Below are positions 14,460 through 22,064 of a stretch of DNA of 22,064 nucleotides, one piece after another. The notes below the pieces were generated by a model that saw nothing but the letters and a program-made list of their open reading frames with translations, searched no databases and was not told where the DNA came from. Source of the DNA: a virus; IMG/VR virus record IMGVR_UViG_3300008120_000360, positions 1 to 22,064 of that record, one strand, 5' to 3'. A program made the translations under genes and the position numbers. Positions within the stretch are counted from its first letter, which is position 1. The number at the start of each line of letters is the position of its first letter.

Positions 14460-14735
14460 TACTTTGCTGGCCTCATCGATGCTCTGGAGCAGGTCGGCGC
14501 GGAGATTGCTCAACGCATCCAAGCCGCCGGCGCAGTGCGCGATGGTGCCTTGATTCTGCGCGCTCTGGAGGGTGCGGACGAGCTCAATGGCGTCCTCGAT
14601 GTGATCATCGATCTTTTGCAGGAGCGCCAGCACGACGAGGGGCTTCGTGCCGGGCATGCACAGCGCGGTGCGCATGTCGTCCTCGTCGAGGCGCTCGGGT
14701 TGCATGTAGCGGATGGTTTTTTTTATGGTGATCAT
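14454..14735 (-). CDS. Small helical protein downstream of queD, unknown
   Basis: A 93-aa protein, mostly helical: LDEDDMRTALCMPGTKPLVV, then LLQKIDDHIEDAIELVRTLQ and LDALSNLRADLLQSIDEA. Its ATG overlaps the QueD stop (ATGA), so it is translated with the modification cassette. It is the last gene before the leader repeats and scaffold gene. No family recognised; a role with QueD/DpdA is only suggested by linkage. Confidence 0.65.
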   Translation of the reverse strand: MITIKKTIRYMQPERLDEDDMRTALCMPGTKPLVVLALLQKIDDHIEDAIELVRTLQSAQNQGTIAHCAGGLDALSNLRADLLQSIDEASKVG

Positions 14736-15112
14736 ATTTCGTAGATGACTGATGTGGTTGGTGTTTCAAAAAGTTCGACGGCGTAAAGCTGCGGGAGCTT
14801 TGGCGCGATTTCATGGCCAAGCCAAAAAGCGAGGTTTTCGGCGGTGGTCTCAAAATCGAACGAGTCGTTGAGAAATGTGTGGTCGAGCTTTTGGACAACG
14901 GGCCGCACAACGCCAGCGATGTCAGCGTAATCGACGACCCAATCCCGCTCGGGGTTGAGCTTGCCCTGGCAATGGACTCGCAGTTTGTAGCTGTGGCCGT
15001 GGAGTCGGCCGCATTGGTGGCCGACCGGCACTTTGGTGAGTTGGTGGGCGGCTTCAAATGTGAAGTCCTTCCAGAGTTTGAAGTTTGCGCTGAGGCGTTG
15101 TTTTTTATTCAT
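14732..15112 (-). CDS. queD: QueD, 6-carboxy-5,6,7,8-tetrahydropterin synthase
   Basis: A 126-aa protein, the usual length of QueD. It converts 7,8-dihydroneopterin triphosphate to 6-carboxytetrahydropterin, the second step toward preQ0. All expected features are visible: FTFEAAH (zinc His23), GHQCGRLHGH with catalytic Cys34 and zinc His38/His40, the WVVDYADI segment, LDHTFLN with Asp77-His78, TTAENLAFW, and VELFETPTTSVIYE with Glu117. It aligns by eye along its whole length with E. coli QueD. ATG 15112 overlaps the DpdA-like stop (ATGA), so both are co-translated. FolE, QueE and QueC are not in this window and must come from the host or from elsewhere in the genome. Confidence 0.93.
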   Translation of the reverse strand: MNKKQRLSANFKLWKDFTFEAAHQLTKVPVGHQCGRLHGHSYKLRVHCQGKLNPERDWVVDYADIAGVVRPVVQKLDHTFLNDSFDFETTAENLAFWLGHEIAPKLPQLYAVELFETPTTSVIYEI

Positions 15113-15744
15113 AGAAATTGAAGTTGCGGGCGCTTGTCGCCGTTTGTGCTTTGGGAGAGGTAGCGGCGTAATTCCACGAGTCGTTCATCGCCGGCCCGCA
15201 GCCACCCGGTGCCGTCGCAGGATTGCGCTCCGGCTTCGTGCGCCATCCAGAGGAGGCGCTCCGAGTTGACCCGCCCGACATGCACATTCGGGAAATTGTC
15301 AGTCCATGTCCGGAGGTTGCGCCATTTCCACTCGGTCGTTCCTCCGATAAAGATGACCTCGGCATCGGCGGGAACATGGCGAGGGGTCATGCCGTCCTGG
15401 ACTGCGAGGGCCAATGGAGTATTTGGTCGGGCGGCTCGCACTTGCGGCGCCCACTCCTGCCAAGAAATTAGTGTGGCGTCGGCATCGGCGACCACATCAG
15501 GACAGACGATCCAGAGAGGGCGGTGCGCCACCTTGGATTTTTCAAGCAAATGCAGAAACGCTACAGGGTCCCAAGGGCGATCATTCACGAATGCTCCATA
15601 AGCTCCGTTGTCGAGGGCGTATGGCATCCAAGCCGGTGGTTTCCGCCAACCATCAGGCGAGATCAGCCAACCAATGCGGCCATCGAACTTGCCAGCGAGG
15701 TAGCCGACTTCGAGTCCCGAGTTATTGGTTGGCATAACCATCAT
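15109..15744 (-). CDS. DpdA-like (TGT-related) 7-deazaguanine DNA base-exchange enzyme
   Basis: A 211-aa protein. Its motifs follow the order of a tRNA-guanine-transglycosylase-like barrel: ALDNGAYGAF (43-52), VCPDVVADADAT (80-91), LALAVQDGM (111-119), IFIGGTTEWKW (131-141), HVGRVN (155-160) and SCDGTGW (175-181). These match what I recall of phage and bacterial DpdA-family proteins, which swap guanine in DNA for a preQ0-type base. VQDG and SCDGTG would correspond to the VQGG and catalytic-Asp loops of TGT (inference). No CxCxxC zinc site is seen. QueD follows with a 4-nt overlap, which supports the pathway strongly. ATG 15744 overlaps the HTH stop by one base; nearby ATGs at 15741 and 15735 are possible starts. 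Confidence 0.72.
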   Translation of the reverse strand: MMVMPTNNSGLEVGYLAGKFDGRIGWLISPDGWRKPPAWMPYALDNGAYGAFVNDRPWDPVAFLHLLEKSKVAHRPLWIVCPDVVADADATLISWQEWAPQVRAARPNTPLALAVQDGMTPRHVPADAEVIFIGGTTEWKWRNLRTWTDNFPNVHVGRVNSERLLWMAHEAGAQSCDGTGWLRAGDERLVELRRYLSQSTNGDKRPQLQFL

Positions 15745-19530: not shown

Positions 19531-21045
19531 TCACGCCGCCTTTTGGGTTTCAGTTGAGTTCTTCGAGCGCCGCAGGATCCGCTCAATCGTGTCACGCGAC
19601 ACCCCGTATTTCGCCGACATCTCCCCGTAGAAACCCCGAGCCCCAGGCGGCCACACCGCATGCTTTGCGATGATCTCAGCCTCCTCCAGCGGGCTGATCT
19701 TCGGCGCGCGGCCCGCCTTGCCCTTCGCCTTGCCCTCTTCCTCGGGCTCCTCCGGCAGCTCCGCCGGCTCCCAGTGCAAACCCTTAGCCGCATGCTTGAT
19801 GATGATATCCGTCGTCGGGTGCCCATGCTCATCCACCACCGCAGCCCGGTTCCCACGCTTCGCCAGCAGCACCTTGAAGATCCCGTCGTGCTTCGTCGTC
19901 TGCAGCACGCAGATCGCCCGCGCCCAGTTCGTCAACTCGCTCGATCCCAGCCCGATGTAGGCGTAGTCATTTGCATTCCAATGCGCCCGGCTCTTGCTAT
20001 CGCTCTGCGGCTTCCCCGTGTGGTGACTCCACACCCACGCAAAGTTATGCTCGAAGGCCAGCGGATTGCAGAGTTCCCGCAGGAAATGCGACGCCACCGC
20101 CTGCTGCGAAATATCGTCGCCGATGAAAGACAGCAGCGGATCCCCGTAGACCAGGTCAAACGGCCCGTGCCTCGCGATCAGCTCCCGCACCACCTCGATG
20201 AAAGCCTCCCCCGTCTGCGCCGTCACCCGCGCCACCACAATATTGCGCTTCAGCTCATCCAGCGCCACCCGTTGGATCATCTTGCTCCCAGCCACCACAT
20301 ACGCCATCACGCCCTGCACCACCTCAGCCATGTCCCCCATGTCATTCTCCGCTTGTATGATCAGGCTCCGCAGCGGCCTCCGCGGCTTCATTCCGAAAAA
20401 CGGCATCCCCAGCGCCCAAGTCATAGCCTGCTGCAGAGTGTAAGAGGATTTGCCGATTCCCGACTGCCCCAGCAACAATAGCTGCCCGCCGCGGCACAGC
20501 CACCGATCCCCCACCAGCGTGCTCGCGTCATCCTCTGGAGTGTAGCCAAAGAGCTGCTCAAAGGTATGGATCTCCACGCCCGCCATCGCCGCCCTCGGCT
20601 TGGCCAGCAGCTTCAGCTCCTGCAGCGCATCCGCCACCGCCATCGAGCCATCCGCCAGCCCCTGCCCCACCTTTACCGCCTTCCGAGTCGCCGCCGCCGC
20701 CGCGATATCCGCCAGGTATTCCGACACCACCGCGCCACCCGATGGGTTGAAGCCCAGCGAGGTATCCGCCATCACCATCCCATCCTGCCACGAGATCATC
20801 CCCGCAGCCTTCGCCTCCGCCTCCGCCAGCTTCAGCCAATACGGCTCCCGCTCGATGGCCTCCAGAATCGTCGTCGCCACCACCGCCTTGCCCGCATGGT
20901 GCAGCCGGTGCGCCGCCGCGTAGTAGAGACCGTTCAGCACACTGCTGAACGCCTCCGGCTCCACCACCGCCGACTTCGGCACGCCGGCAAAGCCGTTCAT
21001 GCTCAGGTAGCCGACGACGGCGCTTTCTTTCTCAGGATATTGCAT
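19531..21045 (-). CDS. Replicative ATPase, RepA/DnaB-like helicase
   Basis: A 504-aa protein. Residues about 1-150 resemble a DnaB N-terminal domain (EKESAVVGYL, then AHRLHHAGKAVVATTILEAI). The RecA-like core follows: Walker A GQSGIGKS at 193-200, a LIIQAEN strand near 228-234, Walker B FDLVYGD near 296-302, and WSHHTGK near 339-345, which is the AAA_25/RepA pattern. The C-terminus has a charged linker (EEPEEEGKAKGKAGRAPK) and a helix-turn-helix near 482-493 (YGVSRDTIERIL). It would unwind or load at the phage origin. ATG 21045 lies within the 3' end of the methyltransferase gene, with AGAGG about 10 nt ahead. The fused HTH could bind the repeats just downstream of this gene. Confidence 0.85.
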   Translation of the reverse strand: MQYPEKESAVVGYLSMNGFAGVPKSAVVEPEAFSSVLNGLYYAAAHRLHHAGKAVVATTILEAIEREPYWLKLAEAEAKAAGMISWQDGMVMADTSLGFNPSGGAVVSEYLADIAAAAATRKAVKVGQGLADGSMAVADALQELKLLAKPRAAMAGVEIHTFEQLFGYTPEDDASTLVGDRWLCRGGQLLLLGQSGIGKSSYTLQQAMTWALGMPFFGMKPRRPLRSLIIQAENDMGDMAEVVQGVMAYVVAGSKMIQRVALDELKRNIVVARVTAQTGEAFIEVVRELIARHGPFDLVYGDPLLSFIGDDISQQAVASHFLRELCNPLAFEHNFAWVWSHHTGKPQSDSKSRAHWNANDYAYIGLGSSELTNWARAICVLQTTKHDGIFKVLLAKRGNRAAVVDEHGHPTTDIIIKHAAKGLHWEPAELPEEPEEEGKAKGKAGRAPKISPLEEAEIIAKHAVWPPGARGFYGEMSAKYGVSRDTIERILRRSKNSTETQKAA

Positions 21046-22064
21046 TAAAAAGTTCCTCTGTTAAAACGCGAAAAGCTCGTTCTGCTGTTGCTGGCACGAC
21101 TCCGTTGCCGAGGAGGCGCAGTTCGTCAGTTCGATTGTCACAGGAGATGCACAACTCGGCATAACCCAGCCAATCGGAAGGCCCATCAGCGTCTCGACCC
21201 AGCGAGGGTTGAGTTTCGCTGATTTGTTCCCGTCCGCAGCATGATCCCTCAACTTGTATTTCCCCGCGCAACCCTCTCTCATCTCCATCACTCCGCCCTC
21301 GCCGTCCGAGGCTCCCGGCGTGCGCCAGTCCACCCACAACCCTTGGCGGCTCCCATGCGTGCTGGGGTTCGCCGGGGCGGCTTGGCCATGCCTGAGTTGT
21401 TCCGCAGCCACTTGCGTTCGCAATCTCTGGTCTGATGTCTTGGGCCGCTGTCCATTGGCCCACATCACTACCGCTTCTTGAGTGCTGCCCGTCACATCTC
21501 CCGATTGTGGAGTCAGCCAGTTCGCGGCCTCCTGCGTCACCACCGCGCACAGGTAGTGCTTGCCCAGCATGTGGTCGTGGCACTTGGAGCCAACCGGCCC
21601 CACATCCTTGTATTCCGAGGCTCTTATCGTAGGCCAATTCTTCTCCGCTACAGCCATTCCAAGGCTGTGACCTCGAGTCTGACCTACTGATGGCGGAACT
21701 GAATTGACAGAATCCTTCCAATCCCTGGCGTTTGTCGTAGGCCAAGATAAAGACCCGCTTGCGCTGGTGCGGTGCGCCGACTTCAGACGCGCTGAATATT
21801 CCCCACGCCGTCTGGTAACCGATTGATTCCAGCTCTCCAATGACTTCTCGGAGTCCAAGGCTGATGTGTCCTTCGACATTCTCAAAGAAGCATAGTCGAG
21901 GTCGAATAACTCGTATTGATCTGGCGATGTGAGGCCAGAGGTGGCGAGGATCTTCTGTGCCGAGTCGCTTTCCGGCTGCGGAAAATGGCTGGCAGGGGTA
22001 ACCGGCCACAAGGAGGTCCACTCGGTCACGAAAGTCCTCGCATGGGAAGGTCTTAATATCCGTC
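21032..22064 (-). CDS. dcm: DNA (cytosine-5) methyltransferase, 5'-truncated by window edge
   Basis: The frame is open to the right edge, so the N-terminal SAM motif lies outside; 343 codons are visible. Numbering from a GTG at 22021: motif IV GYPCQPFS (7-14, catalytic Cys10), motif VI FFENVEGH (45-52), motif VIII GAPHQRKRVFILA (82-94), and motif X LLGNGVVPATAERAF (303-317). These define a C5-cytosine methyltransferase. The target-recognition region (about 95-290) is unusual: low-complexity, Gly/Arg-rich, with LAYDK, LAYDK, LADST, IANAS and LAHAG units. Target sequence unknown. Likely role is protection of phage DNA from restriction. It overlaps the ATPase start by 14 nt, and nearly all of it is overlapped by another open frame. 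Confidence 0.92.
   Translation of the reverse strand, partial: TDIKTFPCEDFRDRVDLLVAGYPCQPFSAAGKRLGTEDPRHLWPHIARSIRVIRPRLCFFENVEGHISLGLREVIGELESIGYQTAWGIFSASEVGAPHQRKRVFILAYDKRQGLEGFCQFSSAISRSDSRSQPWNGCSGEELAYDKSLGIQGCGAGWLQVPRPHAGQALPVRGGDAGGRELADSTIGRCDGQHSRSGSDVGQWTAAQDIRPEIANASGCGTTQAWPSRPGEPQHAWEPPRVVGGLAHAGSLGRRGRSDGDERGLRGEIQVEGSCCGREQISETQPSLGRDADGPSDWLGYAELCISCDNRTDELRLLGNGVVPATAERAFRVLTEELFNAIS
21061..22064 (-). CDS. Overprinted frame inside the methyltransferase gene, candidate second protein
   Basis: A same-strand frame, one base shifted from the methyltransferase, is open from the right edge to a TAA at 21061 (322 residues from a GTG at 22029). Unlike the Arg/Pro-rich shadows elsewhere, it has recurring motifs: WPTTNARDWKD (96-106), WPTIRASEYKD (132-142), WLTP (171), WRTPGASDGEGG (235-246) and LNPRWVETLMGLPIGW (273-288), plus RRRGEYSARLKSAHRT (73-88). 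I recall this W-x-T-P / LNP-x-WVE-x-LMG-x-P-x-GW pattern from database entries called hypothetical or methyltransferase-related in phages. Expression is not shown. Alternatives are a non-expressed reading of a repeated target-recognition region, or a product reached by frameshift. Confidence 0.5.
   Translation of the reverse strand, partial: RILRPSHARTFVTEWTSLWPVTPASHFPQPESDSAQKILATSGLTSPDQYELFDLDYASLRMSKDTSALDSEKSLESWNQSVTRRRGEYSARLKSAHRTSASGSLSWPTTNARDWKDSVNSVPPSVGQTRGHSLGMAVAEKNWPTIRASEYKDVGPVGSKCHDHMLGKHYLCAVVTQEAANWLTPQSGDVTGSTQEAVVMWANGQRPKTSDQRLRTQVAAEQLRHGQAAPANPSTHGSRQGLWVDWRTPGASDGEGGVMEMREGCAGKYKLRDHAADGNKSAKLNPRWVETLMGLPIGWVMPSCASPVTIELTNCASSATESCQQQQNELFAF

Follow-up and report, generated by a model that had tools for sequence, protein, structure and literature searches.

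Two overlapping frames of a viral C5-cytosine methyltransferase gene as candidate catalytic and target-recognition halves of one enzyme

The window analyzed here, 22,064 bases long, is an entire IMG/VR virus record, in which terminase, major head protein and replication genes are present. Its right end holds two minus-strand reading frames that share about 1 kb; both are cut by the contig end at 22064, which leaves each open at its 5' side: frame A (21032..22063; 343 aa), the apparent catalytic subunit of a C5-cytosine methyltransferase, and frame B (21061..22062; 333 aa), which is shifted by +1 relative to A and is proposed here to be a target-recognition/motif IX subunit. That two frames of the same strand look protein-coding at this place had been remarked in a sequence-only reading, and the remark is borne out, frame B being open to an extent far beyond chance.

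Frame A carries PCQPFS (motif IV, 21980..21997), ENVEG (VI) and HQRKRVF (VIII) in the order expected for PF00145, and LGNGVVP (21092..21112) agrees with the GNxVxP form of motif X in that family. The Pfam DNA_methylase profile matches frame A at 5e-29 over profile positions 49-168 of 324 only, up to about motif VIII, and the HhaI/HaeIII match likewise covers the IV-VIII part only; the C-terminus of A matches the end of phrog_1008 (positions 293-320). Motif I is cut off in the window, and full-length relatives have an LCAGYGG-type motif I, including one (L007, with WCAGYGG) that is 100% identical over the part present in the window. A target-recognition (TRD) region and motif IX were not found in the same chain in frame A, the corresponding block, LNPRWVETLMGLPIGW, sitting in frame B. 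The earlier description of frame A as a canonical C5 methyltransferase thus holds for motifs IV, VI, VIII and X, and does not hold for a complete enzyme, since motif IX is missing.

Frame B contains the WPT units and the LNPRWVETLMGLPIGW block that had been pointed out in it. The units (WPTTNARDWKD, WPTIRASEYKD, WLTPQSGD and WRTPGASDGEG) occupy a module region at 21214..21744, over which frame A is open and shows no amino acid constraint by dN/dS, and LNPRWVETLMGLPIGW follows at 21166..21213. The usual wording of motif IX in C5 methyltransferases is LTPREaaRLqGFPdGW. LNPRWVETLMGLPIGW aligns with it free of gaps, and can be compared with RRLTPREAARLMGFP and LTPRECARLM, which stand in frame in sampled viral methyltransferases; by this alignment it looks like a motif IX. 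The block is present in frame B of 64 of the 78 relatives fetched by frame A, and is preceded in frame B by zero to eight WPTP-like modules (median 3; 235 relatives), which may be exchangeable target-recognition units. Frame B matches phrog_1008, "DNA methyltransferase," at 2.9e-20 (positions 43-237); no Pfam match and no PDB match were found for B alone. AlphaFold2 modeling of B (mean pLDDT 51) and of a fused relative (L347; 54) gave structures too poor to show the small domain of a C5 enzyme. The only confident element of the B model, built for L007, is a predicted long helix at residues 130-162, which overlaps the VI-VIII region of A and is a candidate contact with A.

The division of constraint between the frames was estimated by a home-made, OLGenie-like count over pairs 2-25% apart. 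The pairs share ancestry and the strict set for VIII-X is small, and the following figures are to be read as indicative: dN/dS of A is 0.28 from the start to motif IV, 0.19 over IV-VIII, 2.2 over VIII-X and 0.05 over the stretch that begins just ahead of motif X and runs to the end; for B the values are 0.40 (0.22-0.66), 0.71 (0.46-1.24), 0.10 (0.03-0.24) and 1.0; and the +2 control frame lies at 1.0-1.75 throughout. Over VIII-X, a looser alignment filter put A at 0.89 and B at 0.64 (0.55-0.73). Constraint is thus divided, with A carrying motifs I-VIII and X, and B the target-recognition region and motif IX, where A looks unconstrained. This split suggests that the two frames divide the enzyme between them. 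Over IV-VIII the constraint on B is weak by this measure, yet stops are absent there.

Three architectures are found among the relatives, which may be called fused, split and overlapping. The fused type is seen in a Pelosinus sequence (L200) and a UViG (L347), where I-VIII, WPTP modules, LNPDWVECLMGFPIGW and X follow each other in one frame and the other frames are closed. Residues 1-171 and 301-349 of the fused L347 match frame A of Paenibacillus phage Bloom, residues 204-289 match Bloom frame B (50%, 7e-23), and the profile of B from the window clade also matches L347 in that TRD-IX part (97%, 4e-11). In the split type (Brevibacillus L152/L317, Alicyclobacillus L185, L268 and Streptomyces phage phiBT1), A ends after VIII, and B has the modules, IX and X. 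The overlapping type, that of the window, makes up most of the loci surveyed; few relatives were found on plasmids. Since fused and split relatives carry the homologous part, B most likely represents the target-recognition/motif IX subunit of the same enzyme, and not an unrelated overprinted gene.

Two further phages deserve mention. The record of phiBT1 describes gene 9.1 (L365; NC_004664.2 27120-28200) as a methylase that "may be inactive"; the gene appears to be the catalytic half of a split-type enzyme, and the un-annotated +1 frame after it carries modules, a motif IX-like block and motif X. By inspection, gp54 of Mycobacterium phage Babsiella (L002) has LLPTP repeats, WMMGWPAGWV and GNGV all in the catalytic frame, and its +1 frame, annotated as gp55, has further LPTP repeats, so that the locus resembles a mosaic of the fused and overlapping forms.

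We consider it very probable, on these sequence comparisons, that this DNA is read in two frames to make two proteins, which together form a single C5-cytosine methyltransferase. Frame A would yield the catalytic half, with AdoMet binding, motifs I-VIII and motif X, and frame B the target-recognizing half, with the variable module region and motif IX; an active enzyme would result from their assembly in trans, which is on record for M.EcoHK31I. We infer that B is translated, binds A and reads the target, and the phage would presumably use the methyl mark against host restriction.

The other roles that could be imagined for B are those of a separate protein overprinted on dcm, be it an anti-restriction factor, a methyltransferase regulator or a DNA-binding partner. 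The missing Pfam and PDB matches for B alone would fit such a protein, as would its N-terminal half, which is without counterpart in the fused enzymes, and the helix at residues 130-162, the one confident part of its model. However, the C-terminal half of B corresponds to the TRD-IX part that the fused enzymes carry in frame, and among the matches listed in the survey described below B goes together with an A that is without motif IX and is absent where A has that motif, which makes a separate role improbable. The same homology bears on the idea, put forward from the sequence alone, of recurrent overprinting on phage dcm genes: both frames are under selection, and the arrangement recurs in several clades on dcm-like genes, but overprinting by an unrelated protein is not supported, as other methyltransferases carry in frame a homologue of the C-terminal half of B. 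Only the N-terminal part of B, over motifs I-VIII, may be true overprinting.

In the window clade B starts at an ATG that is kept at nearly all of the 72 start sites examined, giving the N-terminus MWILPKQLHT or MTWILPKQLHT in L007 and others, and A starts at GTG or ATG, 2, 5 or 8 nt downstream of the start of B; the start contexts of the pair read ATGTGG, ATGACATGG or ATGGACACATGG. With starts so close together, A and B could share one ribosome site; about half of the loci in the window clade showed no clear Shine-Dalgarno sequence ahead of B. For the other clades, the usual position of the B start is 7-22 codons ahead of motif IV; there B is often preceded by a strong Shine-Dalgarno sequence lying within gene A, such as TAAGGAGgcgttttATG in L155, and would be served by this ribosome site of its own.

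A single chain might instead arise by programmed frameshifting, from A to B after motif VIII and from B back to A before motif X, placing I-VIII, TRD, IX and X in one polypeptide. That order does exist in one frame in the fused L200 and L347 and, by inspection, in Babsiella gp54, and constraint changes frame at the same two points. Against this, the chain would need two shifts, and a shift after VIII requires neither the separate, conserved start of B nor the absence of stops ahead of VIII in the B frame of 95 genes. The conserved start, together with the Shine-Dalgarno sequences for B inside gene A in other clades, speaks for separate initiation of B rather than for frameshifting, which we regard as disfavored and improbable. 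Two separately initiated subunits remain the reading that we prefer.

Whether frame B is a coding sequence at all was approached through its stop codons. The first homologue set, of 78 relatives, was gathered with frame A alone, so that frame B could not bias the sample, and expected stops were obtained by shuffling synonymous codons in a way that preserves both the protein and the codon usage of A. Frame B is stop-free over about 300 codons in 73 of the 78, where 4.35 stops per gene are expected, whereas the +2 control frame has 14.1 observed against 13.7 expected and is never open. A further set of 95 genes was fetched with either frame; two loci with a later B start (L003, L006) and three with one frame disrupted or with B running beyond A (L063, L114, L133) were set aside from it. 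From the start of B to motif X these 95 genes have no stop in frame B, against about 547 expected, and the absence extends to each part (234 expected from the start to IV, 134 over IV-VIII and 178 over VIII-X). Past the end of B itself, the same frame has 133 stops against 92 expected. Among 86 neighboring ORFs, taken as a negative control, 1122 stops were observed against 1180 expected and none was open, and in a second clade, that of E. coli phage K1ind2, 35 genes have one B stop where 106 are expected. Judged by these counts, frame B is under selection as a coding frame.

That B is a mere shadow, open and seemingly conserved only through frame A and base composition, has in its favor a GC content of 52-63%, which promotes long shadow frames, and an IV-VIII part that copies conserved codons of A with a dN/dS in B not clearly below 1, but it is extremely improbable, a compositional origin being ruled out by the hundreds of stops that synonymous shuffles predict and that are absent in B, by the +2 frame and neighboring genes, which match expectation, by the closure of B in methyltransferases with an in-frame motif IX, and by the split relatives, which depend on B for IX and X. 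The sequence-only reading had named common second-frame stops in close methyltransferase homologues, or unreduced synonymous variation in the overlap, as the signs of a shadow; stops proved to be essentially absent and nonsynonymous change in B is reduced, and these checks did not refute a coding frame B. Of the loci set aside, L133 has a short A and an intact B, and in L063, as in L064, the frames are displaced; sequencing errors or decaying copies may account for these.

The distribution of the two-frame arrangement was surveyed in viral contigs sampled by the DNA pattern of motif IV only. Among the matches listed, B is open from IV to X in 52 of the 53 genes that have motif X and are without a canonical in-frame motif IX, with a single B stop against 165 expected, whereas it is open in none of the six genes with a canonical in-frame IX (43 stops against 40 expected). 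Among the matches listed, an open frame B and a canonical motif IX in the catalytic frame are therefore mutually exclusive. Sorted by motif, the 76 matches listed include 31 clear cases of the overlapping type, 15 others in which an open +1 frame has a variant motif IX, and nine that look split, some of them cut by a contig end; the sample was not thinned for relatedness and these fractions are approximate. Most cytosine methyltransferase genes among the viral-contig matches listed seem to be built as two-frame genes. More generally, we think it likely that the usual phage C5 methyltransferase comes from a two-frame gene, with the target-recognition half in the hidden +1 frame, that the window clade superimposes two full-length proteins whose starts are 2-8 nt apart, and that most lone "Dcm" annotations describe the catalytic half only.

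In the window the second ORF lies inside the first in another frame, and the same is reportedly true of M.EcoHK31I (YGGCCR), where Lee, Kam and Shaw are said to have described in 1995 a small-subunit gene inside the large one. By motif layout, as taken from its description, M.EcoHK31I is the closest known enzyme, with the same split as the window: one polypeptide has motifs I-VIII and X, the other IX (PMC3404938). The TRD of M.EcoHK31I is assigned to the large subunit, whereas constraint and the fused and split relatives place it in frame B here, and in the window clade the two starts are 2-8 nt apart, the overlap extending over the entire gene. In the split M.AquI, one polypeptide has I-VIII and a second the distal variable region and IX-X (PMC3404938), an order shared by the split relatives L152/L317, L185, L268 and phiBT1, where motif X is on the small subunit; the window differs in having motif X on the catalytic frame and reading frames that overlap almost completely. 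A hidden HNH endonuclease is known to lie out of frame inside a phage methylase gene, as the ShiLan domain (PMC11855218), but that protein is a homing endonuclease within an insertion and no part of the methyltransferase, and an insertion of this type is ruled out for frame B, in which no HNH or other Pfam match was found.

Both frames are already annotated in Bloom (BLOOM_56/57) and K1ind2 (ORF29/ORF28), as two methyltransferases or as an "Mte8-like protein," and the link between the halves is not stated; other phage records annotate frame A only. The matches of B and of the C-terminus of A to phrog_1008 are as expected if split-type B proteins that have motif X belong to that family, whose record does not mention an overlapping frame. 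In a search of mainly open-access literature on overlapping or alternative-frame cytosine methyltransferases, we found no account of such a family or of a general phage feature.

Cellular and dsDNA phage genomes seldom contain long overlaps on one strand in which both frames are backed by evidence, and the two-frame methyltransferase appears to recur across many phages and prophages, up to the extreme of two nearly superimposed full-length proteins. If the two-subunit reading is true, many phage methyltransferases are misannotated, with half of the enzyme unrecorded or, as for phiBT1 9.1, the gene called inactive, and A cloned alone would show no activity and reveal no target site. With its fused, split and overlapping forms, the enzyme would offer a natural system for studying the origin of overlapping genes and the division of constraint between them, and it is a potential natural two-part methyltransferase for targeted-methylation tools.

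Elsewhere in the window, at 14732-15744 on the minus strand, a QueD-like gene (phrog_2389) adjoins a phrog_15826 gene, and this pair possibly represents a pathway for 7-deazaguanine modification of DNA or RNA, in addition to the methyltransferase.
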